NCBI RefSeq assembly: GCF_000187245.1
Contig: NC_027861.1
Location: 1,364,001-1,428,000, forward strand
Source: Ogataea parapolymorpha DL-1
Lineage: Eukaryota; Ascomycota; Pichiomycetes; Pichiales; Pichiaceae
Reading direction: 5' to 3'
DNA length: 64,000 bases
This document shows, in pieces, positions 8,640 to 60,448 of the stretch; position 1 is the stretch's first letter, and each line of letters starts with the position of its first letter. The notes under the pieces are model-generated. The model saw nothing but the letters and a program-made list of their open reading frames with translations, was not told the DNA's origin and did no database searches. A program made the position numbers and the translations under genes.

Positions 8640-9753
8640 ATGCGCTTATGGGGAATTCTCTCGCTATTTCTTCTCGCCATTGTTGTGGTGGCCAAGAGGG
8701 ACTACTACGAGGTAAGTGTTGAGGCTTAGCACGACTAACGCTCAGGTTCTCGGAGTTTCCAAGGATGCTGGTGACAAGGAAATCAAACAAGCGTATAGAG
8801 AGCTCTCAAAGAAATACCACCCAGATAAAAATCCTGGCGACGACTCGGCGCAAACCAAGTTCATGGAGATTGGCGAAGCATACGAGGTGCTAATGGACAA
8901 GGAAAAGCGTGCCGCGTACGACAATTTTGGCCACGAGGGTCTCCAGGGCGGCGGCCATCAGCAGCAGCATCATGATCCGTTCGACATGTTTGCCAATTTC
9001 TTTGGCGGCCAGCAGCAACGCCGTGGCAGACCGCGAGGCGCAGATACCTCAACAGAGCTGACATTCACACTGAAGGAGTTTTACAACGGGCTCGACACGG
9101 ATTTTTCATTGCAGATGCAAAACATATGCGACAAGTGTTCTGGGTCGGGATCCCAGGACGGAAAGACCCATACCTGTTCGCAATGTAACGGTCGTGGACG
9201 CGTGGTAGTTAAAAGACAGCTCGGACCTGGAATGTTCCAGCGGTTTGAAAGTCCGTGTCCGCAATGCCAGGGGTCCGGAAATCAAATCACCCATCACTGC
9301 AAAAAATGCCATGGCCACGGAGTTGTTCGGGGTGACCGCAAATATAACTTCCATTTGCAGCCGGGAACGCCCCGCAACCATGTTGAGGTGTACCAGGGAG
9401 AGTCCGACAAATCGCCCGAGTGGGATGCGGGCGATCTACGGGTCAAGATTGTGGAAAGCAATACCGGCAATTTGGGCTATCGACGCGTCGGAAATAATCT
9501 ATACAGGACGGAAATTCTGACGTTGAAAGAGGCATTAGGGGGCGGATGGGAGCGCACAATTCCGTTTCTTGATAATTACGATAACACGGTGCTACTCAAG
9601 CGTGCGCCGGGCGAAATGGTGCGGAACGGCGAGGTGGAGAGGATCCGCGGTCGCGGAATGCCCGTGGCTGGCAGTGTGGACGAGTATGGCGACCTGTTCA
9701 TCCAGTACACGGTTCTGTTCCCAGCAAAAGCAAACATAAAGGATGAGTTATAG
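8640..9753 (+). CDS. SCJ1: ER-lumenal DnaJ-type Hsp40 co-chaperone Scj1 (two exons)
   Basis: Exons 8640-8711 and 8746-9753 give 359 residues. Exon 1 supplies the start and signal peptide (MRLWGILSLFLLAIVVVAKRDYYE). Without the 34-nt intron the J domain lacks its first helix and the signal is lost. The J domain has HPD at residues 49-51. Next come a Gly/Gln/His linker, four CxxCxGxG zinc repeats (about 152-212) and the substrate-binding C-terminal domain. The protein ends IKDEL, an ER-retention signal. The role is to stimulate the ATPase of Kar2/BiP in folding and ER-associated degradation of lumenal proteins. S. cerevisiae Scj1 is 377 residues with the same order. Confidence 0.93.
8712..8745 (+). 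other. 34-nt spliceosomal intron in SCJ1
   Basis: Begins GTAAGT (8712-8717), contains branch motif GACTAAC (8733-8739) and ends CTCAG at 8745, so the branch A is 7 nt before the splice site. Its length is not a multiple of three and it contains an in-frame TAG, so splicing is required to join the signal peptide to the J domain (DYYE|VLGV). Confidence 0.9.
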
Positions 9754-9902
9754 AGATAGAAGGTGAAAGATCTTGCCGGAATTAGTATTGCAAGTCGCTG
9801 TGTCGTAAATAAATTTCCGTGCTATCAGCTGAAATAATTTCCGAAAAAAGAATTGCATTTCTCTTATCTTTGGTTCCTGATACGGGTGCAAATTCCGCAC
9901 GT

Positions 9903-9910
9903 CTATAAAA
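9903..9910 (+). promoter_or_regulatory. TATA box of the Rieske oxygenase gene
   Basis: CTATAAAA lies about 30-37 bp before the ATG chosen at 9940. This also argues against the longer open frame that begins upstream of the TATA box at 9853. Confidence 0.6.
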
Positions 9911-9939
9911 CAGCGCGCCCTTGCTCTTTGCTGTTGTCA

Positions 9940-11283
9940 ATGTCTGCCGCAGTTGCCAAACCAGCTCCACCTCCACAAGACACCACTGACGAGAAGCTTC
10001 TCCCAGGAGAGCACACACTGCCTGCCTCCTGGTGGACTTCGCAGAAAGTTTTCGATTACGAAAAAAAAGCTATTTTTGCCAGATCCTGGCTTTTTGTCAC
10101 GCACCAGCAGCGCTTCAAAAAAGCAGGCGACTACTTTTCTTACAGCTTTATGGGCTGGAATTTCTTCTTGATCAAGACCAAAGCCGGCGAGATCAAGGCT
10201 TTCCACAACGTCTGCAGACACAGGGCCTATCCTGTGGTCAGAAAGCAGCAGGGATCGTCAATTGTTCTTGGTTGCAAGTACCACGGTTGGTCCTACAACA
10301 CCGACGGCCTACTGACCAAGGCACCACACTTTAACGAGGTCGAGGGCTTTGACCCCAAGGCTAACTCTTTGTTTGAGATCAGAAGCCACACCACGAAGGA
10401 GGGCCTGGTTTTCATTAATTTCGACAACACCGACCAGTACACTCCATTCGAGGAATTTTTCGCAGGACTCGACCAGGAGATGGCCGAGTACGACTTTGAC
10501 GACTACGAGTACCACATGTCCTATGAGCTGGACGGCGAGTTCAACTGGAAGACCCTGATGGACGGCTACCAGGAGTGCTACCACTGTCCGACCGCTCACC
10601 CCGGCCTCAACTCTGCCTTCAAGATGGAAACCTACAAGGTTGTTCCTAAGGGCAATTACTGCCGCCACTATGCGAAGATCGTTGAGGACGAAATCGAAGA
10701 GGTCGAGGAGGAGGACCCAGACACCGAATCGTCGTGGTTTGGCTTTGGAAAAAAGAAGCAGGAAAAAAAGAAGACTGTCAAGACCAGAGAGAACCCGGGA
10801 GGAACTTTCAACGGTCTGTGGTGCTATCTGTTCCCTACCAACGGCGTGAACTGCTACTCGCCAGCGTTCTACTCCATCAGAGTGCTACCAATTGCTCCAT
10901 CGAGAACTATTTTGCAATACGACATCTACACCAAGAAGGGCCTTGCAGAGGATAAGAAAAAAGAGTTTGTCGACTTCTTGCAACAGGTCGAGATCGAGGA
11001 CTTCAACCTGTGCGTCCAGACCCAGAAAAATTTGAACCAGGGTATTTATTCCACGGGCTACCTCCACCCTCTCAAGGAGCGCGGAGTCTTACATTACCAG
11101 GGCCTGGTGAAAGATATGGTCAAAAGACACTTTGAGCTCGAACAGAAGGAGGGAAGGGAGATCAACCCGGCCAGAATCGGGGGCAAACAGAACTCCAGCG
11201 AGGCTCAGGAGCTGGAGGAGTTGTGCTCCAAAATTGAGTGCCAGGGTTCGAACCCCGAGTCACTCGGCGAGCTCGACTGGTGA
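9940..11283 (+). CDS. Rieske non-heme iron oxygenase, choline-monooxygenase-like
   Basis: 447 residues from the ATG at 9940, just downstream of the TATA box. The Rieske [2Fe-2S] ligands are C92-x-H94 and C112-x2-H115 (CRHRAYP...CKYHGW). The catalytic mononuclear iron motif is EFNWKTLMDGYQECYHCPTAHPG (split: NWKTLMDGY, then QECYHCPTAH), with His215 and His220 as ligands and Glu212 as the likely bridge from the neighbouring Rieske centre. Relatives oxidise choline, carnitine or aromatic compounds; the substrate here is not determinable. Odd point: about residues 245-285 form an acidic then lysine-rich insertion (EDEIEEVEEED ... KKKQEKKKTVK) inside the catalytic domain. No partner reductase gene is adjacent. 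Confidence 0.85.
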   Translation: MSAAVAKPAPPPQDTTDEKLLPGEHTLPASWWTSQKVFDYEKKAIFARSWLFVTHQQRFKKAGDYFSYSFMGWNFFLIKTKAGEIKAFHNVCRHRAYPVVRKQQGSSIVLGCKYHGWSYNTDGLLTKAPHFNEVEGFDPKANSLFEIRSHTTKEGLVFINFDNTDQYTPFEEFFAGLDQEMAEYDFDDYEYHMSYELDGEFNWKTLMDGYQECYHCPTAHPGLNSAFKMETYKVVPKGNYCRHYAKIVEDEIEEVEEEDPDTESSWFGFGKKKQEKKKTVKTRENPGGTFNGLWCYLFPTNGVNCYSPAFYSIRVLPIAPSRTILQYDIYTKKGLAEDKKKEFVDFLQQVEIEDFNLCVQTQKNLNQGIYSTGYLHPLKERGVLHYQGLVKDMVKRHFELEQKEGREINPARIGGKQNSSEAQELEELCSKIECQGSNPESLGELDW

Positions 11284-11299
11284 GCATATATATTTATAT

Positions 11300-13360
11300 T
11301 CAATTATTTCTCATTTCTAGAATTTCGTCAATTACGCTCTGGCGCAGCGAAGAGTCCACGAATAGGCTCTTGACCAGTCCTATCAGCTCGTCTGTGGCCA
11401 GCTCGAAGAATTTCGCGTCGTAGAAACTGTCCAGGATCTCGCGCAGTCCAGAGTCCAGCACCAGCTTTACCTGCTCTAGTTTCTGGTAGCTCTGCAGTTT
11501 CCGAAGCTCTGGCAGTTCAGAAGGCACCAGGAGACGCAAAAAGCCGGCCAGTGTGTCAGAGAGAATTTGGGACTCGTCAGAGTCGATGTTGGAGCGCGAA
11601 ACAAGCATCTGACTCAGATAACCACTGACCTGGGTGACCATCGAGCTGGCCACCTCGTGCACCAGAACGTTGTTCACTCCCGTTCCGTTGACGTATTCTT
11701 TATTGATTTCACCAAAAATCTTGTCCAGCTCACGTAGCAGACTCTTGGAGTGGCGCTCACGCACACTGTTCTCGTAGCTGTTGTCATGGAACAAAACATC
11801 CTCGTGCGGACGGATAGTTTTGAATATCGTCTCCAGGTATTGCTGGACATGTTGTATACGGAACCTCTGTTTTAAGGCGTAGCAGGACTCAAGGTTAACA
11901 GAGTACTTGACAGCCAGATCGTCGATGACTTTGGAGTAATCGGTGTAAAACGAGACCCAACCACTGTACGACTCGCTCACCACCATGAAATAGCACATCA
12001 CAAGCTTTTTGATATTGAGTTTGAACAAATGTTCTGCATTTTCCACAGACTGAGCCTTCGACCTTAGCTGCTCGTAGTTGTTGTAATAATCTGCCACCAA
12101 ATTTTTCATCCAACTGCAAACACTGGAGTATTTCACTGTGGCCGAAACGTTCGACGACTTGCTGTTTGTTGAGATGGACTTGACGCCCAGATCGTTTTTG
12201 TCATCCTTCCAGTCCTCATTCCATGCGTCCCAGCCGTCTTCCTCTGCGACCTTATTTGGGCTTTCTGGTGTTTCTGGATTCTCATCCCAGTCCTTGTCCC
12301 ATTCGTCGTTCCAATCGTCTTCGTCTGCCGGTTCTGCATCTTTCTCACATAGCTCTTCTTTTTCAAGGTTTCCGAGTTCTCCACTGATGGCCATTTCCTT
12401 TATTTCATCAATCTTTTTGTCCACCAGCGTCTCCACCCAGTAGCTGACTAGATCGTCAATCCAGAACTCCAGATCACAGGAACCGTCTCTTGACCACCCA
12501 TCCTGAGTTAAAAGCTCGGATATGACCTGCAACTGGCCAATTGTCTTGCTGTCGCCGGCCCCGTATTTGCTCAAGATTAGCGAATATATGTTCTCAGAGT
12601 CGAACATGCGCTGTTTTAGTGCTGCCATAAGAAGTTTAGACACGTTCAATTTGATTGCTCCAAGATGATTCTTTTCACCGTTTCTATTGTGGTCCATGAA
12701 CAGGTTGAAGAAATTAATAATATTTTCGACGCTCTGAAGAAACCCAGAAAACGTTGTCTGGCTGCCGAATTCAAGAACTATCTGTTCTCCATCATACGAA
12801 AGCTTGTTTGCCCGACCCATGTTCGAAGATAGTATTTTGCCAAAAAGCTTATTGAAGCCAAAATAGTGCATGAACTCGTCCTCGGTTAAGGTGCAAAATT
12901 CGTAGCTCCAACTAAGATAGTCCAGGAAAGTCAGATCATTGTGTTTGTTATTGTACTGCAGGGAGTCATTCCTGAAATTGATATAGTTTGAAAGAAGCGA
13001 GACCATCTCCTGCTTTAATTTCACCCCAAAAGCCTGTGCTTGCTTGTTGATCTCGGTCAATATTATCGCTTCGCCGGCTATCATCTCCTTTAAATCCTTG
13101 ACCTTACTCAGCAATTTCTTATAGTTGCTCACAGCACTGTCAAATACCACCTCATCGCCCAAAGACGCTGAAAGCTCGGTAATCAGCCCCCTAATTACCC
13201 ACAACAGATTGCAACATTCGAGTTGTTGGAGATAGTCTGACGCCTGGAACTGAACCAGCCCTATATCTACGGGACCTTCCGCTCGCTCGAGTTCTCTAGA
13301 AAGCCTATCTTTGTCGTAGCCTCGGATATACGAGTGCAGTGCGGCGCTGATCGACTCCAT
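11300..13360 (-). CDS. DSL1: Dsl1, subunit of the ER tethering complex for COPI vesicles
   Basis: 686 residues; ends 16 bp from the convergent Rieske gene. The body is helical and of the ZW10/Dsl1 type. About residues 343-387 hold an acidic, tryptophan-studded loop with repeats such as DDWNDEWDKDWDE and DGWDAWNEDW, the diagnostic lasso of Dsl1 that binds coatomer subunits through its Trp motifs. With Tip20 and Sec39, Dsl1 captures Golgi-derived COPI vesicles and holds the ER SNAREs Use1 and Sec20. Overall sequence is fast-evolving, so the call rests on the acidic Trp loop, length and fold character. Confidence 0.85.
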   Translation of the reverse strand: MESISAALHSYIRGYDKDRLSRELERAEGPVDIGLVQFQASDYLQQLECCNLLWVIRGLITELSASLGDEVVFDSAVSNYKKLLSKVKDLKEMIAGEAIILTEINKQAQAFGVKLKQEMVSLLSNYINFRNDSLQYNNKHNDLTFLDYLSWSYEFCTLTEDEFMHYFGFNKLFGKILSSNMGRANKLSYDGEQIVLEFGSQTTFSGFLQSVENIINFFNLFMDHNRNGEKNHLGAIKLNVSKLLMAALKQRMFDSENIYSLILSKYGAGDSKTIGQLQVISELLTQDGWSRDGSCDLEFWIDDLVSYWVETLVDKKIDEIKEMAISGELGNLEKEELCEKDAEPADEDDWNDEWDKDWDENPETPESPNKVAEEDGWDAWNEDWKDDKNDLGVKSISTNSKSSNVSATVKYSSVCSWMKNLVADYYNNYEQLRSKAQSVENAEHLFKLNIKKLVMCYFMVVSESYSGWVSFYTDYSKVIDDLAVKYSVNLESCYALKQRFRIQHVQQYLETIFKTIRPHEDVLFHDNSYENSVRERHSKSLLRELDKIFGEINKEYVNGTGVNNVLVHEVASSMVTQVSGYLSQMLVSRSNIDSDESQILSDTLAGFLRLLVPSELPELRKLQSYQKLEQVKLVLDSGLREILDSFYDAKFFELATDELIGLVKSLFVDSSLRQSVIDEILEMRNN

Positions 13361-13396
13361 TAAAGTATTTGGTTAAAAAAATAATAATACAAATTA

Positions 13397-16330: not shown

Positions 16331-16404
16331 TTAGCAGGAATAAATAGAGTAAATAAACACTTAAAAAATATTCGATTTAATAAATATATTTTATCAGTCT
16401 CTCA

Positions 16405-17508
16405 ATGGTAAGTACGTTGAATTCTACTCTAACGCAGTTTTCTGGATTTGGATTTGGCTTTGGCGAGCCAACGCTGCCAATGTTGCAGGGTTTCGATGAC
16501 TACTTTCGCTGCTATCCCATCGCAATGATGCCTGATGTAAGCAGAAAAGACGATGCCAACTACGGGGGCAAAATCTTTCTGCCCCAATCAGCGCTTCACA
16601 AGCTGACAATGCTCCATATTAGATATCCTATGCTCTTCACAATTACTTCAGAAAGCTCCGGGAAATCCACGCACAGTGGAGTGCTGGAATTCACAGCAGA
16701 AGAGGGCCGCTGTTATTTGCCACAATGGATGCTCGACACAATTGCTGCCGAGCCGGGATCACTCGTCAACATCAAAACCGCAGACCTTCCACAAGGAAGC
16801 TTTGTGATGCTTGAGCCCCAAAGCGTCGACTTTCTGGACATCAGTGACCCCAAAGCTGTCCTGGAAAATGCATTAAGGAAATTTACCACATTGACAGTTG
16901 GAGATATAATCGAGCTAGACTACAATGACCAGATATACAAAATCAAAATATTAGAGGTCAAGCCAGAAAGCTCATCGCACGGAATTTGTGTTATTGAAAC
17001 CGATTTGGAGACGGATTTCGCCCCGCCCGTTGGGTACGTGGAGCCCGATTACAAGGCGCTGAAAGAGGAGCAGGAGAAGAAGAATAAAACCAAAGCTTTG
17101 TCGCAGCCATCTCTGAAAGGCACAGGTTCCATGGCACAGCAAATCAATTACGGTGAGATTATTCGAGAAGCTAATAAAAGCACACAGAAGTTCCAAGGCG
17201 ACGGTGTCAAATTGTCTGGTAAGAAAATAGCAAAGGAAGCAGAACCTTCTATAAATACAGCGGATATCGACCTAAATGGTCCTGTCAAACCATTACACTT
17301 GCCAGACGGGTACCTTTTTTTCGGGTTCCCGGTGAAGGTGTATAAGGACGGCTTTGAGGAAAAAGACGAAACACCAAACAAACCTCATTTTGCAGGTCAG
17401 GGACAGTCGTTGCGGAGTGCGAAAAAGCGGAAGGATAAAAATAAGAATTTCCCTGCAGTGAAAGACAAAGCACGGTCTCCGGAAACCATTGTGATAGACA
17501 GCGATTAG
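16405..17508 (+). CDS. UFD1: Ufd1, substrate-recruiting cofactor of Cdc48 (two exons)
   Basis: Exons 16405-16407 (only the ATG) and 16438-17508 give 357 residues starting MFSGFGFGFGEPT, which restores the conserved Ufd1 N-terminus (S. cerevisiae begins MFSGF). Unspliced reading stays open and would insert 10 residues after Met1. The protein has the double-psi barrel UT3 domain (RCYPIAMM, KIFLPQSALHKL, EEGRCYLPQWML, LEPQSVDFLDISDPKAVLE) and a C-terminal tail with Npl4/Cdc48-contacting segments (LFFGFPV). With Npl4 it delivers ubiquitylated proteins to Cdc48 in ER-associated and other degradation. Its stop codon overlaps that of CWC23 by 3 bases on the opposite strand. Confidence 0.95.
   Translation: MVSTLNSTLTQFSGFGFGFGEPTLPMLQGFDDYFRCYPIAMMPDVSRKDDANYGGKIFLPQSALHKLTMLHIRYPMLFTITSESSGKSTHSGVLEFTAEEGRCYLPQWMLDTIAAEPGSLVNIKTADLPQGSFVMLEPQSVDFLDISDPKAVLENALRKFTTLTVGDIIELDYNDQIYKIKILEVKPESSSHGICVIETDLETDFAPPVGYVEPDYKALKEEQEKKNKTKALSQPSLKGTGSMAQQINYGEIIREANKSTQKFQGDGVKLSGKKIAKEAEPSINTADIDLNGPVKPLHLPDGYLFFGFPVKVYKDGFEEKDETPNKPHFAGQGQSLRSAKKRKDKNKNFPAVKDKARSPETIVIDSD
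16408..16437 (+). other. 30-nt intron directly after the UFD1 start codon
   Basis: Begins GTAAGT at 16408, contains CTCTAAC (16427-16433) and ends GCAG at 16437; the branch A is 5 nt before the splice site. It is 10 codons long with no stop, so an unspliced mRNA would still give full-length Ufd1 with an extended N-terminus. The case for splicing is the exact match of all three signals to the other introns here plus recovery of the conserved MFSGF start. Confidence 0.82.
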
Positions 17509-45583: not shown

Positions 45584-45756
45584 ATACTTACCTTGGGAGA
45601 TCACAGGAGATCATGAAGTCCTTGTGATCGGGCCTGTCCAGTTTGCTTTGCACATACCTGCTGCTGGCAGGCTCGCCAGCTCTTCCCTTCGGAGGAGTGT
45701 GGGTCTCATAATTTTTGATATACACTTACAAAGTTTCAGCTTGCTGAATTTTGTAT
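45584..45756 (+). ncRNA. SNR19: U1 spliceosomal snRNA (compact, about 173 nt)
   Basis: Begins ATACTTACCT, the invariant U1 5' end that pairs with 5' splice sites. Stem-loop 1 follows (arms GATCAC 45598-45603 and GTGATC 45624-45629) with the U1-70K loop GAGATCATGAAGTCC, nearly identical to S. cerevisiae U1. TTTGCAC at about 45646-45652 resembles the U1A-binding loop. Two further stems are GCTGGC/GCCAGC (45663-45680) and CTCTTCC/GGAGGAG (45680-45697). The Sm site is AATTTTTG (45710-45717), then a final hairpin (45727-45755). The 3' end abuts the convergent SEC23-family stop codon. Length is near the metazoan 164 nt and far below the ~570 nt of S. cerevisiae. The exact 3' end is inferred. Confidence 0.95.
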
Positions 45757-48027
45757 CTAGGTCGGCTTCACCACCGCGTTATTGACGTGTTCCATGAACG
45801 TTTGTAAACTCACGTCGTCGGTGAGGATCACGGCGCCGCTGTCCGTCTGGCCGTTTGCCAGAATGTGCAAGTCGTCGCCGTTTTTGTACGACGTTGTTGG
45901 GTTCAGCTTCGACATCAAAAACCTCGCCTGCGACCCGCCTTCCTCGGTGTCGATAAATCGCGGCAGTGGGAACCGGTCAACAAGGATGTCTGCAGCTTCC
46001 ACCCGAGGCTGATTCAGGAACTCCTTGAAGTACTCGTAGTCCGGCAGGTCTTGGTACCCCTGTCTTCTCCACTCTGCTATTTGGGAGCCATGGAATATTA
46101 ATAGATGGAAAAACGTGTCCAGGAGCAGGATCCTGTCTGGTCTGATCGACAGCGAATCCAACAACACTGGCTCTGGCTCTTTCTCGATCTCAAACGATGT
46201 CAACGTCGGCTGAATCATGATGAGCGAGTTCATGCACTCCTCCGTCAGGAAACAGTGTCTGTAGAACGCCGTTTCGTCCGGCGACGAGTTGAAGATTTGG
46301 ATGAAATTGGACCGTCTCAGATGGTACATGAACTGCGGAAAGAGGTTCAAATTCTGAGACAGCACCAACGACCGCGGATCGCCCACTTTGTAGGTTCCAA
46401 ACTTGGAACACAGGTCCACCAAAATCTTGTCGCACCACCGAATGGCGTCCGTGGAGTTGTCTCTCAGCACCTTATACAGTGCTTCACGAGCAACCAGCAC
46501 AGCGGCAGCCTCCTGGTCGAAAAAGTCAATCAAATTCTGTCCCGGTTGCAGACTTGGCTGGTGACTGGTGGTCACATGCAGTCTACGCGTGCCGTCCGAA
46601 TGCTGGTAGCTGGTGATAAATTGTATGATCCCGAACGGTTGGCTAACCTCAATGACAGGCTCGAAATACACACCGTAGGTCGAATGCACAGAGACTCCGC
46701 CTAGCTTCCACGTGTCCGTCCCGCCCACGCCAATCTCCTTGTCCGCCACAAACGGCGTCTTGTGCTTGAGCGCGGTCACGTGACCGACAATACCACTGAG
46801 CTTGAGGTTATTTGTGGTTTTGATCTCGAGCGTGGCGTTGAGGCCGAACTCGAGCGTGCCTGCGGGTGTGCGGTTGAAGAATCTTTGCAGAGACTGTTTA
46901 AAAATGGCCGTCGAGAACCCGTCGCTCTGGATCGCCGTGCCTCCCGATCTGTGCATGAGACACTCCATTTCGGCAAGGCCGACCTGGTCGTAGGAGCCGA
47001 CAAATATGTCCACTGTGTGGCCTGCTTTGGACGCGATGGCTGCCAGCTCTTCGTAGAATTTTGCCGATTTTTTGTATTGCTTGAGCATGGCCGGGTCTTT
47101 TTGCAGATCGCTGTGCGATCTGATTGGATTTTTCAAAGCGGTGTCCACGATTTTGCCCGGGCCGTATGTGCAGGGGCCTCCCGTAAACAGCATCAAACGG
47201 GCACCAGACTTGGCGAACGTGGACGAGAGCAGGTTGATGGCCACGTTCAACGCAGCTCCCGTGGCACGCTGGTTCCTATGGTATTTCTCGACAGGGAACG
47301 AGTCTGGGGTAAGCGACTCAATTAAAGTGGTGAGTTGAAACTCGCACATGGCCAGCTGCTGGATGAACCTGCTGGCAGGGTTTAGCGGCATTTCAGGCTG
47401 ATTCTGGACGGGTCTCCTGTGCGCTTTGAGGTCTCCAGAAAGCACGCCCAGAGTTTTCTCTATTTGGTCTGCATTATAGCTTTTCTGCCCATTAAAACAG
47501 TAGCTCGAGCTCGAGTCCTGATGGCCGATCTCGTGGACGTTGACATTTTTTCCAAACGTGATAAAGCCAACCAGGGCATCTGGAGGAATCAAGTTCATTG
47601 CCACCAGCAGGCTTTCCTTCAGGGCAGCGAGGTTTTCTGGTTCCAGGCACAGATCCACGACAAAAAGGAACACATAGGGCTGCTGGGTGGCCAGCGGCGG
47701 CAATATGTACTCGTAATTGACGGCTTCGGGACGAGCTTCGAATGGCAGGTCGGCGAGCTCATGAGCAAACTGGTTGCGCAGCCGACATAGCGAGCATGTC
47801 CACGTTCTGCTCTGCAGGTCAGGCTGACAGTACGGGTTCAGCAGCGCCCGGCACCCACGACAGGAGATGGGAGGTCCATTTAACAAGAGTGGACTCTCCA
47901 TAGGTCTGAGCGGCTGGTACAGACAAGAGAACGGCACGACGTAGTTTTTGGCGTCGTTCTTAGACTGCGGCAGCGCGTTCCACGCAAACCGCAGCCCCGT
48001 CAAGTCTTCGTACGCTTCAAAAGACAT
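45757..48027 (-). CDS. SEC23: COPII coat GTPase-activating subunit Sec23 (or its paralogue Nel1)
   Basis: 756 residues from ATG 48027. N-terminus FEAYEDLTGLRFAWNALPQSK, zinc finger CRGCRALLNPYC...CSLCRLRN, trunk domain (FLFVVDLCLEPENLAALKESL, RATGAALNVAINLL), beta-barrel, helical domain and gelsolin domain (QARFLMSKLNPT). FDQEAAAVLVAREALYKV, LRRSNFIQIFNSSPDETAFYRH and NSLIMIQPTLTSFE are strongly conserved. Sec23 with Sec24 forms the inner COPII coat and stimulates Sar1 GTP hydrolysis at ER exit sites. Divergence in the trunk leaves open the non-coat paralogue Nel1; S. cerevisiae Sec23 is 768 residues. Confidence 0.88.
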   Translation of the reverse strand: MSFEAYEDLTGLRFAWNALPQSKNDAKNYVVPFSCLYQPLRPMESPLLLNGPPISCRGCRALLNPYCQPDLQSRTWTCSLCRLRNQFAHELADLPFEARPEAVNYEYILPPLATQQPYVFLFVVDLCLEPENLAALKESLLVAMNLIPPDALVGFITFGKNVNVHEIGHQDSSSSYCFNGQKSYNADQIEKTLGVLSGDLKAHRRPVQNQPEMPLNPASRFIQQLAMCEFQLTTLIESLTPDSFPVEKYHRNQRATGAALNVAINLLSSTFAKSGARLMLFTGGPCTYGPGKIVDTALKNPIRSHSDLQKDPAMLKQYKKSAKFYEELAAIASKAGHTVDIFVGSYDQVGLAEMECLMHRSGGTAIQSDGFSTAIFKQSLQRFFNRTPAGTLEFGLNATLEIKTTNNLKLSGIVGHVTALKHKTPFVADKEIGVGGTDTWKLGGVSVHSTYGVYFEPVIEVSQPFGIIQFITSYQHSDGTRRLHVTTSHQPSLQPGQNLIDFFDQEAAAVLVAREALYKVLRDNSTDAIRWCDKILVDLCSKFGTYKVGDPRSLVLSQNLNLFPQFMYHLRRSNFIQIFNSSPDETAFYRHCFLTEECMNSLIMIQPTLTSFEIEKEPEPVLLDSLSIRPDRILLLDTFFHLLIFHGSQIAEWRRQGYQDLPDYEYFKEFLNQPRVEAADILVDRFPLPRFIDTEEGGSQARFLMSKLNPTTSYKNGDDLHILANGQTDSGAVILTDDVSLQTFMEHVNNAVVKPT

Positions 48028-53467: not shown

Positions 53468-54391
53468 TCATGCCGCTATATTGGTCATAGGTTCCTCCTC
53501 GTATTCGATCTCAATCCGAGGCCTCTTTCTCTTTTTCTGAGGCTCATCCTGGTCCTCATCCTCGTCTTCAGAATCGCTCGACGACGCGTCCGAGCCATCT
53601 TGCAACCATTTTTGCAGATCTTCCATGTCGACCATCTCGTCCTCATCGTCCTCTGCCTCGACGTATTCCACCTCTCCAACATCCGATTCATCTTCTTCGT
53701 CGGTCTCTAGCTCGATTTCGTCGTTCGAGTCGAAATCAGACTCTTCCTCCTCGTGCTCCTCGACCTTGCCTAGCACCTTCTTCCATATCTTGGAATCAAC
53801 ATTCAGAGGCTGGTCACCATATGCACCGGACTTTAGACGTTCTAGCAATTCCTTCTCAATTGCCTTCTCGATACGTGCAGCAGCCAAAGCCTTGCGCTCT
53901 CTCGTTTGTTCTCTCCTCTTGACTTTTGGCTTCACTCCAACATAGTGTCTCTCGTCCTCTCGAAGAGCCAATCTTCTTTCTGTGATAGCAACTTGCGTCA
54001 GTCTGGTGAGTCTCTGCTTGCACTTGTGTATAAGGAATTTGTTCCAGTAGAGCAAATGGTCATCCACTTGCTTCAATGCCTTTTTGTAGTCTTTGCTCAG
54101 CTTGATTCTTTCCCATAAATACTTTGGTGTGTGCGCTCTCTCTGCAGTCTTGATGTACAAATACAACTTTCCATCCACGTTCTTCACGGTTGCGTATCGG
54201 GCATTCGCAAGCGGACATGATTGACGGTTGCACAAGCCGCTAACATTATATTCGTTTCTGCAAAAGTTCTGATCTTTGGTCGTTTTGATCTTAAATGCAC
54301 AGAACTGCTGGTTGATGACCTGCCAGATGACCTATCGGGTTAGCTTGAGGGCTTGAACGAGACAACTCGCTATACTTACTTCGTCAGACAT
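53468..54391 (-). CDS. MAK16: Ribosome biogenesis factor Mak16 (two exons)
   Basis: On the minus strand, exon 1 is 54391-54380 (MSDE) and exon 2 is 54331-53468, giving 291 residues. The spliced start [15 protein letters not shown] matches S. cerevisiae [16 protein letters not shown] zinc-binding Cys set ([20 protein letters not shown]) is followed by the conserved [18 protein letters not shown] and [15 protein letters not shown], and an acidic C-terminal third (Glu/Asp runs, then a Lys/Arg patch). Works in early 60S subunit assembly in the nucleolus with Rpf1, Nsa1 and Rrp1. Confidence 0.95.
54332..54379 (-). other. 48-nt intron in MAK16
   Basis: On the minus strand it starts GTAAGT (54379-54374), carries AGCTAAC and ends GATAG at 54332; the branch A is 8 nt from the splice site. 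It is a multiple of three and its only in-frame stop is the TAG of the 3' splice site itself. Removal joins four first codons to the conserved VIWQVINQQ. Confidence 0.92.
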
Positions 54392-54524
54392 ATTTTCCTA
54401 TGAGGTTCTTATCCTAGATAAAAAATTTTATATTTTCCTAAAAATTTTTTTTTTAGCCATCACCCGTGCACCACAAATCAAACAAAAAAAGCCAATAGCA
54501 CCTGCCAAATTTATAACCATCTGA

Positions 54525-55127
54525 TCATTGCAGTTTCTCCCGTAAACTCATGAAAGTGTCGTAATCCAAAGTCTCCTTAATCCCTTGGTACCTAGTAAGC
54601 TCTATGTCGGCCTCTTCCCAGTTGGTTTGATAGTAGCCCGCTTTCTGAACAAGGTGTTGCAACGTCTCCTCTTTTGTCCATCCTTGCTCCGTGGCAACCT
54701 CGGGCAAAAATGTAGCAGACCTTTTACCATTGACCAGAATTCTGATTCCGTGTTTGCCCAATTCCCAGTCAAGAGCATCTTTTCCGGTCTCAAAGTTCTT
54801 GAGCAGTGTCACAGAACACGAGAGCTTTGGTAATTCCCGTAGAGTTATAGGCTCAAATCTTGGATCCTCTAGAGCAGCAATCAGAGCGTATTCACGAACA
54901 CCGGCAGGTAGCGTTAGATCGCTAAAGTTCCCAATACATCCACGCAAAACCTTATCGTTTCCCTGCTTTATGTTCCACGTAACAAATAAAGGGCACTTTT
55001 CGGTCACCACATTCGAGTCGTTTTCCAGAGTAAGCTTCCACTTGGAGAACGGAATTGGGTCCGTTTTGTGCAATTTTGAGTACAGAGTCTCAAATGCGTA
55101 GGCCGTATACGTTTTAACTGAACTCAT
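54525..55127 (-). CDS. AMMECR1-domain protein (YOR289W type)
   Basis: 200 residues from ATG 55127. The AMMECR1 fold is shown by VLRGCIGNF, EYALIAALEDPRFEPIT, SCSVTLLKNFE, HGIRILVNGKRSATFLPEVA (in part) and GWTKEETLQHLVQKAGY. The LRGCIG loop is the invariant surface of the family. The biochemical function is unknown; human AMMECR1 is linked to a developmental syndrome. A 49-bp gap separates it from the divergent MXR1 start, so they share a promoter. Confidence 0.92.
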   Translation of the reverse strand: MSSVKTYTAYAFETLYSKLHKTDPIPFSKWKLTLENDSNVVTEKCPLFVTWNIKQGNDKVLRGCIGNFSDLTLPAGVREYALIAALEDPRFEPITLRELPKLSCSVTLLKNFETGKDALDWELGKHGIRILVNGKRSATFLPEVATEQGWTKEETLQHLVQKAGYYQTNWEEADIELTRYQGIKETLDYDTFMSLREKLQ

Positions 55128-55176
55128 AATAAATATCCGAGCCACAATTAATTTATCATCTATTTTTTTTTCCACG

Positions 55177-55719
55177 ATGTCCGCCATCTCCAAGACTCTG
55201 AAGACCACGCCTTCCAGCCAAGTTCTGAGCGTTGCTGCCGGCTGTTTCTGGGGTGTTGAGTATCTCTACAAGAAGCATTTCAAAGACCAGATCATTGATA
55301 CAAAGGTTGGTTACGCTAACGGAACTGCCTCAAACCCCGACTACAAACTGGTTTGCACTGGATCCACTAATCATGCAGAGACTTTACAAGTTTCCTTCGA
55401 GCCTTCCAAGGTGTCCTACAGAACACTAGTGGATTTCTTCTTTGTGATGCACGACCCAACGACTGTTGACGCCCAGGGCCCAGATATCGGCACCCAGTAT
55501 CGTTCTGCCATCTTCACTCATAGCGAAGAGCAAGAAAAAATAGCCAAGGAAGCTCTGGAGTACGCGCAGAAAAAGTGGTACCCTAACGACAAGATTGTTA
55601 CTAAAATCGAGCCAATCAAAACGTTTTGGGACGCTGAAGAGTACCACCAGCAGTACTTGATCAAAAATCCAGAGCGCCACCTGTGCCCTACACATTTCAT
55701 CAGAACGACTCCAAAATAA
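55177..55719 (+). CDS. MXR1: Peptide methionine sulfoxide reductase A
   Basis: 180 residues. Active-site motif AAGCFWGVEY with nucleophile Cys23, followed by KVGYANGT, YKLVCTGSTNHAETLQV (Glu and His for catalysis), FFFVMHDPTTVDAQGPDIGTQYRSAIF (in part) and EYHQQYL. One C-terminal Cys (HLCPTHF) may serve as the resolving residue. Reduces the S form of methionine sulfoxide using thioredoxin. Confidence 0.96.
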   Translation: MSAISKTLKTTPSSQVLSVAAGCFWGVEYLYKKHFKDQIIDTKVGYANGTASNPDYKLVCTGSTNHAETLQVSFEPSKVSYRTLVDFFFVMHDPTTVDAQGPDIGTQYRSAIFTHSEEQEKIAKEALEYAQKKWYPNDKIVTKIEPIKTFWDAEEYHQQYLIKNPERHLCPTHFIRTTPK

Positions 55720-55824
55720 AGCTAAAATAAATTTAGGAACATCCGTACACCGGATTGTAGCGATACTGTAAAATACGCTTAAAAGCGATAGGAAGTAGTC
55801 AAAATTATTTAAGTGCAATCCGTA

Positions 55825-58323
55825 ATGGTTGCGAAAAATGTGGCAGTGAGCCTCCAGGAGCAGCAGAAAGCGCTCGAGGATGCGACGACAGTGATCCGTC
55901 AGCAGATCTCGCTCATGAAAAAGTGTCTGGCCACGAAGAACAAGTTCATGGACGCCCTCAAGCACGCTTCGACCTTTCTCAACGAATTGCGGACCGGTGT
56001 GCTTTCTCCAAAGCAGTACTACGAATTGTACATTATGGTCTTTGATGGACTGGAAATCTTGGCCGAGCACCTGAAAACTAACCATCCAAATAATCACCTA
56101 GCAGATTTATATGAATTGGTACAATATGCTGGCAATATCATACCCAGATTGTATTTGATGATAACTGTGGGAACAGTGTATATGTCGATTCCGGATGCTC
56201 CGCTCAAGGAGATCATGAAGGACATGATGGAGATGTGTCGTGGTGTGCAGCATCCAATTCGTGGTTTGTTTTTACGGTACTATCTTTCGCAGAGGACTAA
56301 GGATCTACTGCCTACAAAGTTTGTTTCGGACAAGGAGGAGTCCACAGGCGATCTCAATGACTCAATTCAGTTTATTATCACAAATTTTGTGGAAATGAAC
56401 AAGCTTTGGGTCAGACTGCAACATCAAGGACATTCTTCTGAGCGCAATAAGAGAACTATGGAGCGCAAAGAGCTTCAGATTTTGGTGGGCTCAAACCTGG
56501 TGCGTCTGTCTCAATTGGAAAACATTGACAAGACGTACTACAAAGAACACATTTTGCCAGTCTTGCTGGAACAGATCATTCAGTGTCGGGATGTCATTGC
56601 CCAAGAGTATTTATTGGATGTCATTATTCAAGTATTTCCCGATGAATTCCACCTGGCCACTCTGGAGAATTTCTTCAACGCCACACTGAGCTTAAATGAT
56701 CAGGTAAGCTTGAAAACTATTCTCATCACTTTGATTGATAGATTGATAGATTTCAAACAGCGGGAATCCGACGACGACTTCTTTGAGCAGTTCAAAGCTC
56801 TAAATCTCACAGACATTTTTGATAAGTTTATTGATTTTATCAATAAACTGAATGAGCTCAAACCGGACTTGTCGAGTGAGGATTTCTGCCTGATACTAGA
56901 AGGAATATGCCGTCTTTCCATTACATACTATCCTGAAAACTTTGACAACGTCAACTGCGTTTACAAATATGCTGCCGAAAAATTCAGGGAATCGGGAACA
57001 AACGACTCTTCGGCACAAAGCCACTGGAAATCTCTGCTTCTGGTGCCAATGTCCGGATACTCTAGCATCAAGTCTATCCTCAAACTTGATTCCAGCTATC
57101 TGGACTTTTTCGCATTGCAGAAACCAGTGGTGAGAAAATCAGCCAGTCTCGATATTATTGACTGTTTATTGGTTAATGATGTCAAATTGACGACGGAAGA
57201 AGAAGTCAACAAGATTTTAGAAATTCTGAAGAACCTGATCACCGCTGACGATGACCCTACTGCCAAGGATCTGGGTTTGACTCAGAAAACAGCACAGAAC
57301 CAGGCCATCTTTGGTTTGGACTCGTCGCCGGACGAAGAACAAGATTCACTCGAGGTCACTCTCCAGCAAGAGAAGCTGGCCAAATTCTTGCATTTGATCT
57401 ACAACATTGATCCGTTCAAGCATTTTGAGCTGCTGGGAGAATCGAGAAAGTACTTAAGTCTAGGGAAGTCAAAGGTGAAGTACACTTATCCTACACTTGT
57501 ATTCATTGTTCTCAAACTTGTGAGAAAGCTTCACTTGTTGAAGAAAATTGAAACCAGAGAGGACAGAGCTAAAATCTCGCACTTTTTCCAGTTCATCACG
57601 GGAGTTATCAGCGAGATGAATGAGCTAAACATCAATCCGAGCCTGAGATTAAACCTCAATTTGGTGACCGCACAACTAGCGGACGAAGTGTCGCTTGTGG
57701 ATGTATCGTACGACTTCTTCATTGAATCATTTGTGCTTTACGAACAAAGCCTGGTGGATTCCCGTGCGCAATACCAGAGTCTCATCACAATTATCAACAA
57801 ATTGATGGAGTCCACGAAGATGATTGAGCTAAACATGGACAACTTCGACAAACTGATCACCAAGTGCGCTCTTTACGGATCCAAACTATTGAAAAAAACA
57901 GACCAATGCCGGGCCGTGTACCTTGCTTCACATCTTTGGTGGGTTACGCAGGAAGTGGACGAGTCTACAATAACACACATTTCTTTGAAAAAAGACGAAA
58001 AAAGAGTTCTTGAGTGTCTCCAAAAAGCACTTCGGGTGGCGGACAATATTCTGGACGCTAGGGCCTCACTGGAGTTATTCATTGAGATTCTTAACCAATC
58101 ACTATACTACTTTATTCACGGTAACGACATGGTTACCGTGAAGTACCTAAACGGACTGATTGAATTGATTGATAGCAACTTCAAGACCGCAAGCAAAGAG
58201 CCCGCTACTGACAAGTCCAGCCTTGAAGCGACGTACAAGCACTTTGATCGGACATTGAAGTACATGAACGAACAGCGGGCGATCGACGAAAGGTTCAAGG
58301 AGATCCGGCTTTCCTTTGATTGA
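55825..58323 (+). CDS. VPS35: Retromer cargo-recognition subunit Vps35
   Basis: 832 residues from ATG 55825 (four more codons are open but begin with GTG). An all-helical solenoid; the N-terminal PRLYLMITVGTVY motif needed for Vps26 binding is at about residues 110-122, and RGLFLRYYLSQRTKD follows. C-terminal helices match the Vps29-binding half. Retromer recycles receptors such as Vps10 from endosomes to the Golgi. S. cerevisiae Vps35 is 944 residues, so this is a somewhat shorter member lacking part of the variable linker. Confidence 0.95.
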   Translation: MVAKNVAVSLQEQQKALEDATTVIRQQISLMKKCLATKNKFMDALKHASTFLNELRTGVLSPKQYYELYIMVFDGLEILAEHLKTNHPNNHLADLYELVQYAGNIIPRLYLMITVGTVYMSIPDAPLKEIMKDMMEMCRGVQHPIRGLFLRYYLSQRTKDLLPTKFVSDKEESTGDLNDSIQFIITNFVEMNKLWVRLQHQGHSSERNKRTMERKELQILVGSNLVRLSQLENIDKTYYKEHILPVLLEQIIQCRDVIAQEYLLDVIIQVFPDEFHLATLENFFNATLSLNDQVSLKTILITLIDRLIDFKQRESDDDFFEQFKALNLTDIFDKFIDFINKLNELKPDLSSEDFCLILEGICRLSITYYPENFDNVNCVYKYAAEKFRESGTNDSSAQSHWKSLLLVPMSGYSSIKSILKLDSSYLDFFALQKPVVRKSASLDIIDCLLVNDVKLTTEEEVNKILEILKNLITADDDPTAKDLGLTQKTAQNQAIFGLDSSPDEEQDSLEVTLQQEKLAKFLHLIYNIDPFKHFELLGESRKYLSLGKSKVKYTYPTLVFIVLKLVRKLHLLKKIETREDRAKISHFFQFITGVISEMNELNINPSLRLNLNLVTAQLADEVSLVDVSYDFFIESFVLYEQSLVDSRAQYQSLITIINKLMESTKMIELNMDNFDKLITKCALYGSKLLKKTDQCRAVYLASHLWWVTQEVDESTITHISLKKDEKRVLECLQKALRVADNILDARASLELFIEILNQSLYYFIHGNDMVTVKYLNGLIELIDSNFKTASKEPATDKSSLEATYKHFDRTLKYMNEQRAIDERFKEIRLSFD

Positions 58324-58381
58324 CTTACCCGGTGCCGTGCCAGGGCTACATAACGAAGGATCTAGAAAAAAAAAACCTAGC

Positions 58382-58388
58382 TATAAAA
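58382..58388 (+). promoter_or_regulatory. TATA box of the snR190-U14 snoRNA unit
   Basis: TATAAAA about 85 bp upstream of the first snoRNA, in the 145-bp gap after VPS35. No other TATA-like site lies between the two snoRNAs, which supports one shared transcript. Confidence 0.5.
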
Positions 58389-58467
58389 GAAAAAAATTTT
58401 GTGAAATATTTTCCTTGCAAAGTGTTTCTTCAGTAGAAGAGTTGCATGAAATGGTATGAGACTATCA

Positions 58468-58669
58468 TGACTGCTTAGTGATGAAAACCGAGTTCTTCTT
58501 TCCCAATCTTATTGCGACGATGACGACAGGGTTTAGAAACGCTCTAGGGTCTGAATATGGGTCACTTTTGCAAGTGATTCATTTTTCTTTCCCGTTACTC
58601 TTACTCGTTTTTGCGAGTATTTGTGGAGCTTTTTACTTGCCAGTAATTTACATTTCTGACCAGCAGTTT
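58468..58669 (+). ncRNA. SNR190: Box C/D snoRNA snR190
   Basis: Box C GTGATGA (58478-58484) and box D CTGA (58656-58659) are flanked by a terminal stem ACTGCT (58470-58475) with AGCAGT (58662-58667), two bases outside each box. Internal D' CTGA (58551-58554) and C' GTGATTC (58574-58580) are plausible. TCTTCTTTCCC at 58494-58504 is complementary over 11 bases to the 25S rRNA sequence GGGAAAGAAGA around G2395, the interaction described for S. cerevisiae snR190. Length (about 200 nt) and position just upstream of U14 also match. Ends approximate. The 76-codon frame over it is spurious. Confidence 0.88.
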
Positions 58670-58738
58670 ATGATCAAGTCTTATGTACTTGGAAAGTCTG
58701 CCATTTGATGCAACGCACCATTCTATTGCAGGTGTCAT

Positions 58739-58877
58739 TGGGACAAAATGATGAAAAGTTACCATAAACATTCGCAGTTTCCTCGGTAGATGCACACCCA
58801 CAGGAGGGGCGAACCCAAAAATCTCTCCTGGTGCATTCGTGACCGCCCTAACTTCCTTGGATGTCTGATTTGTCCTA
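58739..58877 (+). ncRNA. SNR128: Box C/D snoRNA U14 (snR128)
   Basis: Box C ATGATGA (58748-58754) and box D CTGA (58865-58868) are enclosed by a perfect 7-bp stem GGACAAA (58741-58747) with TTTGTCC (58869-58875). Domain A, CATTCGCAGTTTC (58769-58781), is complementary over 13 bases to 18S GAAACTGCGAATG. Domain B, CTTCCTTGGATGT (58852-58864), next to box D, pairs with 18S ACATCCAAGGAAG and places C414 at the methylation position. Between them an extended hairpin (arms ATGCAC..CAGGAG and CTCCTG..GTGCAT, 58790-58836) corresponds to the yeast Y domain. U14 is essential for 18S rRNA processing. Confidence 0.96.
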
Positions 58878-58902
58878 ATGGCACTTGCAATAGTCTTGGG
58901 GT

Positions 58903-58922
58903 GTTTCTAAGGGTTTAGAAAC
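58903..58922. terminator. 8-bp perfect hairpin between U14 and PEX19
   Basis: GTTTCTAA (58903-58910) and TTAGAAAC (58915-58922) with a GGGT loop, 25 bp after U14 and 10 bp before the convergent PEX19 stop codon, followed by TTTT. Could help define either 3' end; the loop is not the AGNN type cut by Rnt1. The half GGGTTTAGAAAC also occurs inside snR190 at 58530-58541. Confidence 0.35.
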
Positions 58923-58931
58923 TTTTCAAGA

Positions 58932-59804
58932 CTATGTTTGTTTGCATGTGTCTTCCAGTTCTTTGTTGATATCCTCTGGGATATCGTTGTCGTCCAGCTC
59001 CAGTTCGGAGTTTCCTCCGAAATTCAGGAACTTTAGGTCGTCGTTAAGTAATTCCTTCGGAGGCATTCCTAATTCTTGTAACTCCTCCAATTTGGTGTTG
59101 ATGATATCTTTGTTTTTCTTATCCTCGTGGTCGGGGAGGTCGAATGTGCTGATGATTTCTTTGATCACGGCGTATTGTTGCTGATACTTTGAGTAATTCT
59201 CGTCCTGTTGATTTTCAGGGTTTTCGAGCCAGGCCGGGAATTTCTGGTATAAGTCGTTTAATGGCTCGTACAAGACATTTTTGGACGACAATTTCTCCAA
59301 CATCTCGACCAATAAATTGCCAACGTCCTCGACTCCCCCATTTTGCCCGTCTAATCCTTTCAGATCTAAATTAAGATCAAGCGACTTGAGCAAACTTGTA
59401 ATCAGTTCGTCGTTCCCGTCTTCTTCCTTTATGGATTTGTCTACTTGCTCTCCGCTCTCTTTGAGCCGGTTTATCGTTTCCGAAATCACGTCCTGGAAAT
59501 TGTTCTTCGTAGCCGGCTGAGGGGACGACGACCCGCTGTTCTGTTTGCCAATATCGTCCAGAAAACTACCGAGATTCTTCGAGAGATCGGGGTCCTGAGC
59601 ACCTATTTCCTTCAATAGTTTGCCGAACAGCTCTTTATCGTCCAAATTGGGCTCTTCGTCCGGTGCGGTCGTGAGCTCCTGATCTTGCTTCAGCGTTGCT
59701 CCGGGCGGCTTGCTCAGAATTTCGTCGTCGAAGTCATCGAGCAAGTCATCCAGATCGTCGAGATCGTCATCTGAATAATGTGTTTCGGGTTTTTTCTCGC
59801 TCAT
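58932..59804 (-). CDS. PEX19: Peroxisomal membrane-protein import receptor Pex19
   Basis: 290 residues. Acidic disordered N-terminus with the Pex3-binding region (DDLDDLDDLLDDFDDEIL), then a helical cargo-binding C-terminal half (VEMLEKLSSKNVLYEPLNDLYQKFPAWL, in part; LEELQELGMPPKELL). The last four residues, CKQT, form a CaaX farnesylation box. Pex19 binds peroxisomal membrane proteins in the cytosol and docks at Pex3. Divergent from UBC9 across 122 bp. Confidence 0.96.
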   Translation of the reverse strand: MSEKKPETHYSDDDLDDLDDLLDDFDDEILSKPPGATLKQDQELTTAPDEEPNLDDKELFGKLLKEIGAQDPDLSKNLGSFLDDIGKQNSGSSSPQPATKNNFQDVISETINRLKESGEQVDKSIKEEDGNDELITSLLKSLDLNLDLKGLDGQNGGVEDVGNLLVEMLEKLSSKNVLYEPLNDLYQKFPAWLENPENQQDENYSKYQQQYAVIKEIISTFDLPDHEDKKNKDIINTKLEELQELGMPPKELLNDDLKFLNFGGNSELELDDNDIPEDINKELEDTCKQT

Positions 59805-59926
59805 TTATGCTTAATGAGAGCGTTCCAAGGTAGTCTTAATCTTGCCTAAATAGATAGACGAGCAGTGTTTAAAATGACAGAGTATTTCTACACTGCCAAA
59901 TAGAAAATAAATAAAGTAAATTAAGC

Positions 59927-60448
59927 ATGGCTGAAAGAAACCTCCGAACTGAGCGCATACAACAGGAAAGGTAAGTACATTTGTTGCCGGCAGCTAACAA
60001 TAGAAAAAACTGGAGAAAAGACCATCCGTTTGGTTTTTATGCGAAGCCCATGAAGGCTCCTGATGGATCACTAGATCTACTCAATTGGACGGCTGGAATC
60101 CCTGGAAAATCAAATACACTGTGGGACAACGCCACTTACCCGCTTACCATCATATTCCCTGAAGAATACCCTGCCAAGCCTCCAAAAGTCAAGTTTCCAG
60201 CTGGCTTTTACCATCCAAATGTCTATCCATCGGGTACGGTGTGTCTGTCGATATTGAACGAAGAACAAGATTGGCGGCCCGCCATTTCCCTGAAACAAAT
60301 ATTGCTGGGTGTCCAAGAACTACTTAATACACCAAACCCTGATTCTCCTGCGCAGGAACCTGCCTGGAGACTTTACACCAAGGACCGTGTCGCATACGAG
60401 AAAAAGATCAGGGAACAGACCAAACGGTATGCCAATCCAGACAAATAA
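59927..60448 (+). CDS. UBC9: SUMO-conjugating enzyme Ubc9 (two exons)
   Basis: Exons 59927-59970 and 60004-60448 give 162 residues. The junction falls inside an Arg codon and yields [20 protein letters not shown], matching S. cerevisiae [20 protein letters not shown]. The UBC fold includes the HPN motif and catalytic Cys95 in [19 protein letters not shown], then [19 protein letters not shown] and the SUMO-E2 signature [12 protein letters not shown]. Transfers Smt3/SUMO to substrates in the nucleus. Confidence 0.97.
59971..60003 (+). other. 33-nt intron in UBC9
   Basis: Starts GTAAGT at 59971, has AGCTAAC (59992-59998) and ends AATAG at 60003; the branch A is 6 nt before the splice site. Although 33 is a multiple of three, retention gives an immediate in-frame TAA (AGG TAA). 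Splicing restores the conserved first helix of the E2. Confidence 0.94.

Follow-up and report, generated by a model that had tools for sequence, protein, structure and literature searches.

Ultrashort putative U2-type introns share a narrow spacing floor in the yeast Ogataea parapolymorpha DL-1

Four genes in a 64,000-nucleotide stretch of the Ogataea parapolymorpha DL-1 genome (contig NC_027861.1, forward-strand positions 1,364,001 to 1,428,000; hereafter the window) carry predicted introns of only 30–48 nt. We propose, at a probability of about 0.8, that these are genuine U2-type introns of a genome-wide ultrashort class that clusters at a real minimum and is spliced by the mechanism set out below. 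To judge from sequence, they are most likely ordinary U2-type introns with a lineage minimum fixed by spliceosome geometry.

A scan of the window with the pattern GTAAGT-N(5-34)-CTAAC-N(1-10)-AG returned exactly the introns of SCJ1, UFD1, MAK16 and UBC9 (Table 1), at the positions given for them in an initial annotation of this DNA. That annotation had also assigned all four a GTAAGT start and a CTAAC, and the scan bears this out, each intron running from GTAAGT to AG with CTAAC inside it. Among 100 shuffles of the window, matches averaged 0.26 and never reached four. The branch A was said to lie 5–8 nt before the AG, which is true if the count runs to the intron end (7, 5, 8 and 6 nt in SCJ1, UFD1, MAK16 and UBC9), since these figures include the AG.

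Table 1 Introns, exons and the U1 snRNA gene in the window (window positions; counts after the branch A include the AG)
Feature	Positions	Strand	Description
SCJ1 exon 1	8640..8711	+	24 codons; hydrophobic N-terminus, signal-peptide-like by eye, plus first J-domain residues
SCJ1 intron	8712..8745	+	34 nt; GTAAGT / GACTAAC / CAG; branch A with 26 nt before, 7 after
SCJ1 exon 2	8746..9753	+	KDEL at end
UFD1 exon 1	16405..16407	+	Start codon, nothing else
UFD1 intron	16408..16437	+	30 nt, multiple of three, stop-free; branch A with 24 nt before, 5 after
UFD1 exon 2	16438..17508	+	
U1 snRNA gene	45584..45755	+	172-nt match, ends approximate; RF00003, E 5.2e-14, 58.8 bits, model 1-166/166
MAK16 exon 2	53468..54331	-	
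MAK16 intron	54332..54379	-	48 nt; branch A with 39 nt before, 8 after
MAK16 exon 1	54380..54391	-	MSDE
UBC9 exon 1	59927..59970	+	14 codons plus two bases
UBC9 intron	59971..60003	+	33 nt; in-frame stop if retained; branch A with 26 nt before, 6 after
UBC9 exon 2	60004..60448	+	

Removal of each window intron joins a conserved frame. Left unspliced, the SCJ1, MAK16 and UBC9 frames are each closed by a stop; the UFD1 intron amounts to ten stop-free codons in frame, so splicing is not required there for an open frame and the case for UFD1 is made by homology. The spliced UFD1 product begins MFSGF and aligned from its residue 1 with the solved yeast Ufd1 (8dar), and residue 1 of spliced MAK16 aligned with residue 1 of yeast Mak16 (5z3g). 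For UBC9, the alignment with the yeast protein (3ong) crosses the junction (query residues 6-158), and spliced SCJ1 has a complete DnaJ domain (residues 21-83) with the junction inside it, after residue 24. The conserved N-termini predicted by the initial annotation were thus recovered, from residue 1 in MAK16 and UFD1 and as conservation across the junction in UBC9 and SCJ1.

The class extends across the genome. Over all 8.87 Mb, GTAAGT-N-CTAAC-N(1-10)-AG with perfect motifs gave 275 matches at GTAAGT-to-CTAAC gaps of 5-34 nt, 8 at gaps of 0-13 nt and 32 at gaps of 35-64 nt. Gaps of 14-34 nt hold nearly all matches, with a cliff below 14; the 8 matches at 0-13 nt represent 6 distinct donors, from which a background of 9 to 20 is expected for gaps of 14-34 nt. 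We estimate that the genome contains about 240-250 such introns of roughly 30 to 50 nt. Length statistics were taken from 95 distinct introns among the first 100 of the 275 matches, to which all counts out of 95 refer. Their lengths were 29-51 nt (median 35), and 14-24 free nucleotides separated GTAAGT from CTAAC in 86/95, the fullest gaps being 15-17 nt (43/95). The branch A was preceded by 23-43 nt, most commonly 25-26 nt and in 46/95 by 23-26 nt; none had fewer than 23, where the pattern allowed 14. It was followed by 4-8 nt in 83/95 and by 6-8 nt in 77/95, figures whose concentration is informative but whose outer range is not, because the pattern allowed only 4-13 nt. The initial annotation had put forward a genome-wide motif scan with a length distribution as a check on its reading, and the outcome is a narrow class with a lower edge, found for perfect GTAAGT/CTAAC introns. 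Its suggestion of a lineage-wide minimum stands inside this genome for perfect motifs; for the wider lineage, the evidence consists of relatives' protein entries rather than DNA.

Frame tests and decoys agree with this picture. When introns of 20-400 nt were allowed, 264 kb yielded 17 GTAAGT/CTAAC introns that join reading frames, all of 30-57 nt, and six exact decoy motif pairs yielded 10 joined-frame candidates, none shorter than 60 nt. The 200 kb taken from contig C1 was picked after the hit list had been seen, and is thus fair for lengths and unfair for density. With degenerate donors, candidates of at most 60 nt made up 18/43 for GTNNGT/CTAAC against 2/35 for GANNGT/CTAAC, and CTNAY gave 10 for GANNGT against 28 for GTNNGT. 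Degenerate decoys are less clean, in that some short candidates arise. At distinct loci analysed with their flanks, joining left an open frame of at least 60 codons in 25/29, and a Pfam domain spanned the junction in 4 of the 10 pieces tried (DnaJ, zf-HIT, Urm1 and Ank_2). The frame test is blind to weak-motif introns and to those of untranslated regions.

A reversed-pattern control was harsher, giving 113 matches against 275 for the motif at gaps of 5-34 nt, an excess of only 2.4-fold, with 84 against 32 at 35-64 nt and 64 against 8 at 0-13 nt; a GTATGT donor gave 50 against 52 in this control. We set the reversed pattern aside because its words seem commoner in this genome than GTAAGT and CTAAC, and used same-motif matches at shorter and longer gaps as background instead.

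Several spliceosome parts were found in the genome. The U1 match scores below the gathering score of RF00003 (69.5 bits); its 5′ end, ATACTTACCT, is complementary to the GTAAGT splice sites of the four window introns at 8/9 or 9/9 positions, TATAAA lies about 30 bases upstream of the gene, and the fold of 45584-45760 has a z-score of -4.16. A U2 snRNA match of 202 nt has GTAGTA intact, so the CTAAC present in 4/4 introns is complementary to it, and altered branch recognition by U2 is ruled out. U2AF1 is encoded at C3:596805-597380 (E 1.1e-50, sharing 47% identity with its S. pombe counterpart), in a frame open from its ATG that needs no intron. With U2AF1 present and the branch A near the intron end, these introns have a short 3′ end of the U2AF1 type. 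Slu7 (a modest 42.7 bits, cut-off 27.9) and Prp18 both score above their cut-offs, which rules out their loss as dispensable at a short branch-to-AG distance. A METTL16-family gene (PF05971) was also found. Secondary structure pulling the intron ends together is unsupported, the four introns having z-scores of -1.47 to 0.54.

We suggest that the 5′ end of U1 pairs with GTAAGT, as their complementarity implies, that the GTAGTA of U2 pairs with the branch site, and that U2AF1 helps to pick the AG just downstream of the branch site, so that a polypyrimidine tract would not be used. The floor would then be the shortest linker that allows the 5′-splice-site and branch-site complexes to be held together. 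A compact U1 (a 172-nt match here versus 568 nt in S. cerevisiae) and U2 may let these complexes come closer together than they do in S. cerevisiae. Counting against this explanation, introns of H. polymorpha DL1 have been published as averaging 65 bp, which means that longer ones are either present or annotated.

That the motifs are accidental and translation starts at other codons is extremely improbable: UFD1 alone keeps its frame from an unspliced start, and the shuffles, exact decoys and joined frames, together with the narrow spacing and the domains that span junctions, rule it out. Occasional retention is a better-founded idea, although still quite unlikely, and holds that some introns, UFD1 foremost, are kept at times to give a second, N-terminally extended form of the protein. 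The stop-free, in-frame UFD1 intron would allow this, as would 3/17 candidates in the 264 kb and 5/29 loci, and 94 retained-intron events were reported in the DL1 paper. In O. angusta and O. philodendri, the UFD1 entry is longer by ten residues, which the intron motifs would spell. Between these two entries, however, only the splice-motif residues (initial VS and final TLTQ) are kept, with a different middle, and just 2 of 18 fetched UFD1 entries have the extension; nine others begin MF (three of them MFSGF) and seven begin otherwise.

Genome compaction is the strongest competitor to a steric limit, and we regard it as unlikely rather than remote. The floor would reflect deletion bias and selection for short genes, with introns piling up near the smallest motif-compatible size. 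It fits a genome of this small size, published for DL1 as 84.4% coding, and the argument made for mikrocytids that lengths become narrow when deletion bias acts together with a functional threshold; such a threshold is still needed, however, and the motifs alone would fit in under 20 nt, yet gaps of 0-13 nt are nearly empty and the fullest lie just above them. It is very unlikely that factors of the Smu1-RED type, rather than ordinary geometry, let this spliceosome cope with a 5′ splice site and branch that lie so close together. They are required in human extracts when this distance is short, but here neither RED_N (a profile silent in every control genome, with no eukaryote control shown) nor the Smu1 profile LisH_TPL (among controls, only a weak match in one archaeon, again with no eukaryote) matched the genome, so neither search had a valid positive control.

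Introns of 15-16 nt in Stentor, 16-17 nt in mikrocytids and 18-21 nt in the chlorarachniophyte nucleomorph have been published, and the initial annotation's view that 30-34 nt approaches a spliceosome's physical limit does not hold in general. Those systems likewise show lengths confined genome-wide to a narrow range with a lower edge; their introns are shorter, whereas those described here belong to a free-living, intron-poor yeast with U1, U2, U2AF1, Slu7 and Prp18. The statement that budding-yeast introns usually exceed about 50 nt was likewise too strict, as introns from 41 nt have been reported for Yarrowia lipolytica and a 2026 report describes them from 20. As in Yarrowia and other yeasts that keep U2AF1, a gene linked in budding yeasts with a short branch-to-3′-site distance, the introns have CTAAC near the AG (characteristically 1 nt away in Yarrowia), strong motifs and positions by the start codon. 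Yarrowia differs in its median intron of 196-204 nt, beside which a short class peaks at 41-60, and in its GTGAGT donors, compared with the median of 35 nt and the GTAAGT donors used in our scan. For DL1, 457 intron-bearing genes have been published, and the available portion of the annotation's main text mentions neither a 30-40 nt class nor a length floor. As in human Smu1/RED-dependent introns, how far the 5′ splice site lies from the branch appears to set the limit; in humans the least distance is about 50 nt and assembly was abolished at 35 nt, whereas 23-26 nt is common here.

The yeast belongs to the Ogataea polymorpha complex, and the practical consequence is that the complex's representative UFD1 entry, with its intron read through, and its SCJ1 entry look wrong at these introns, the latter making a detour round the intron that loses the signal-peptide-like start and first J-domain residues. 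These two proteins' entries suggest that gene finders overlook such introns, and other genes among the estimated 240-250 may be misannotated likewise. A tractable industrial yeast complex with a common spacing of about half the human value makes it directly testable where the intron minimum lies and which spliceosome part sets it. We advance only tentatively, as possible rather than probable, that the 23-26 nt before the branch A is this spliceosome's norm, given the parts found and no sign of Smu1-RED in weakly controlled searches. If true, the B-complex spacing rule drawn from human structures would not apply to every conventional spliceosome, and the floor would be set by compact U1 and U2 particles or by another order of handover between them.

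The short-intron design of the window recurs throughout the genome of Ogataea parapolymorpha DL-1. We scanned all seven contigs (8.87 Mb; the consulted text of the H. polymorpha DL1 paper gives 9 Mbp in seven chromosomes (PMC3866509)) for GTAAGT and CTAAC, as the initial annotation had proposed, and obtained 275 matches with 5–34 free nt between the motifs (the gap), against 8 at gaps of 0–13 nt (6 distinct donors; two of these donors have a gap of at least 5 nt and are hence also among the 275) and 32 at 35–64 nt (28 distinct donors). Scaling the 95 distinct donors among the first 100 matches to 275 gives about 261, and 9 to 20 chance donors are expected across the 21 gap values from 14 to 34 if the outer classes are all noise; the genome is thus estimated to hold 240–250 introns with perfect motifs. 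Same-motif matches at outer gaps served as the yardstick in preference to a reversed-pattern control, a less favourable one, which gave 113, 84 and 64 matches at gaps of 5–34, 35–64 and 0–13 nt and did not track spacing; we judge that its words are commoner in the genome. GTATGT donors in the same architecture at gaps of 14–34 nt produced 50 matches versus 52 in the reversed control, so an A at position +4 prevails among perfect-motif matches.

Lengths were measured on the matches listed (the first 100 of 275, all on contigs C1–C4), which yield 95 introns when the nearest AG is assigned to each donor. These span 29–51 nt (median 35), 81 of the 95 falling at 29–40 nt. Among them, 23–43 nt precede the branch A, most commonly 25 (16/95) or 26 (17/95); since the pattern allowed 14–43 nt, the minimum is genuine, whereas the maximum carries no information. 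Gaps of 14–22 nt account for 76 of the 95 introns and gaps of 5–13 nt for none, and the distance after the branch A covers the whole range allowed, 4–13 nt, with 6–8 nt in 77 of these 95. Because the pattern permits at most 57 nt in total, any longer introns would be absent from this set. A frame-based scan of 264 kb permitting up to 400 nt found 17 introns, all of 30–57 nt; the same scan run with six exact decoy pairs of motifs yielded 10 candidates, each at least 60 nt long. Candidates of 60 nt or less made up 2 of 35 for the degenerate decoy GANNGT/CTAAC versus 18 of 43 for GTNNGT/CTAAC. With up to 1000 nt permitted and a broken frame required, which leaves out introns in UTRs, with weak motifs or readable through, GTAAGT/CTAAC gave 14 candidates at 29–60 nt, none at 61–400 nt and three at 401–1000 nt, the last within the exact-decoy range (1–6 with CTAAC).

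In the window itself, which lies at C6:1364001-1428000, the GTAAGT/CTAAC/AG scan returned four matches (shuffle mean 0.26), which bears out the initial proposal of four ultrashort introns with one compact design, in SCJ1, UFD1, MAK16 and UBC9. Three of these genes are unreadable if unspliced; UFD1 is readable because its 30-nt intron amounts to ten sense codons. Intron removal was also said to restore conserved N-termini, and it does: alignment to the yeast homologues begins at residue 1 for spliced MAK16 and at query residue 1 for UFD1, residues 6–158 align for UBC9, and splicing of SCJ1 completes a DnaJ domain (Pfam) that spans the junction. In S. cerevisiae, UBC9 and RPS24 carry introns of about 110 and 470 nt in the same positions as here.

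Most of the loci inspected appear to sit in genes. Of 30 loci inspected with their flanks (29 distinct), 25 of the 29 join to a frame running at least 60 codons past the junction; among the other four, one (L025) encodes a cysteine-rich short protein, one has a frame that stops 19 codons on and is readable through, and the remaining two (L029 and L030) appear to belong to a single gene with two introns, no frame being judgeable in one of them. Genes recognized by eye include gamma-tubulin, 6-phosphogluconate dehydrogenase, dihydrolipoamide dehydrogenase and RPS24, whose 37-nt intron directly follows the start codon and whose piece matches solved structures (30-residue query, three residues assumed). 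A Pfam domain crosses the junction in 4 of 10 N-terminal pieces (HIT zinc finger protein, Urm1, ankyrin protein, SCJ1) and lies only past it in five (a syntaxin one below the cut-off); one has no domain. Two introns, C3:192423-192457 and C3:484920-484953, carry, in addition to the CTAAC near the AG, one that overlaps the donor (GTAAGTACTAAC); as a branch site this extra copy would lie far under the spacing floor.

Coordinates of individual loci and of the U1 snRNA gene
Feature	Position	Strand	Description
L025, cysteine-rich short protein, metallothionein-like	C2:173358-173392		35-nt intron about two codons before the stop
L029 + L030, apparently one two-intron gene	C2:192857-193009		introns of 34 and 43 nt, 76-nt exon between
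U1 snRNA gene	window 45584-45755	+	RF00003-type match, 172 nt

Public protein entries, compared as cluster representatives from which other members may differ, appear to be affected by these introns. Spliced UFD1 shares 99% identity with the representative of a cluster of 14 members named Ogataea angusta and 87% with O. philodendri; both entries (P0108 and P0109, 367 residues) hold ten extra residues, V-S first and T-L-T-Q last, which spell the splice motifs; the middle of the insert differs between the two. Yeast-like UFD1 is also filed under a Haloplasmataceae bacterium (P0132) and an Asgard archaeon MAG (P0160), which suggests that those assemblies are contaminated with yeast. For SCJ1, identity to a representative named O. 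polymorpha (P0228) is 91%; residues 1–61 of this entry align to window 8240–8422 and residues 61–120 from 8731 on, inside the true 34-nt intron. From this split alignment, P0228 seems to bypass that intron by means of a spurious one, roughly 300 nt long, losing the true N-terminus; the O. philodendri entry (P0229) has the expected N-terminus. The DL1 paper reports a mean intron of 65 bp, using Augustus, BLAT-mapped transcripts and TopHat (PMC3866509, consulted text). We suspect that detours such as that of P0228 raise this mean. TopHat's default minimum intron is 70.

The window also encodes a U1 snRNA. The match covers all 166 model positions (58.8 bits, E = 5.2e-14); because its score falls short of the curated 69.5, scanning the window with Rfam at default settings lists nothing. 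Its fold is much more stable than those of shuffled sequences (z = -4.16), and a TATAAA lies some 30 bases upstream of it. When the search was opened to E values up to 1, matches also appeared in three prokaryote controls, none above the cut-off. U1 candidates, all with ACUUACC, are described in 227 of 230 Saccharomycotina genomes (PMC10581693), which makes it unlikely that this one is new. In length the 172-nt match is near human U1 (164 nt) and far from that of S. cerevisiae (568 nt; PMC5648754). The donors of SCJ1 and UBC9 are complementary to the U1 5' end at 9/9 positions, those of UFD1 and MAK16 at 8/9. The genome further holds a 202-nt U2 match including GTAGTA, genes for Slu7 and Prp18, and U2AF1, as predicted from the short branch-to-AG distance (PMC4202332, PMC5499181), a link whose causality is called unproven (PMC4202332). 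A PF05971 (METTL16 family) gene (148 bits; the family also matches 5 of 14 bacterial and archaeal control genomes) fits, with the prevailing +4 A, the reported link between METTL16 and that position (PMC10581693). The RED_N and LisH_TPL profiles gave no match in the genome, in searches that lacked a valid positive control.

In the simplest reading, U1 and U2 would define the intron across a linker no shorter than 14 nt, and the AG would be chosen immediately past the branch. The listings and passages covered by the literature search contained no description of a 30–40 nt class in Ogataea. The initial view that 30–34 nt approaches a physical spliceosome limit does not hold in general, as still shorter introns are described in ciliates and others (PMC9505925, PMC10245619). 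The human minimum from 5' site to branch is put at about 50 nt by assembly tests (PMC6692369) and about 52 nt by B-complex geometry (PMC11291888), whereas the floor before the branch A in DL-1 introns is 23 nt. Introns of unusual lineages had already violated that spacing rule; the DL-1 introns do so in a yeast. Compact U1 and U2 may permit the short spacing. The U1 of S. pombe is also small. Compact U1 is probably ancestral, and would therefore be a permissive condition and no new invention.
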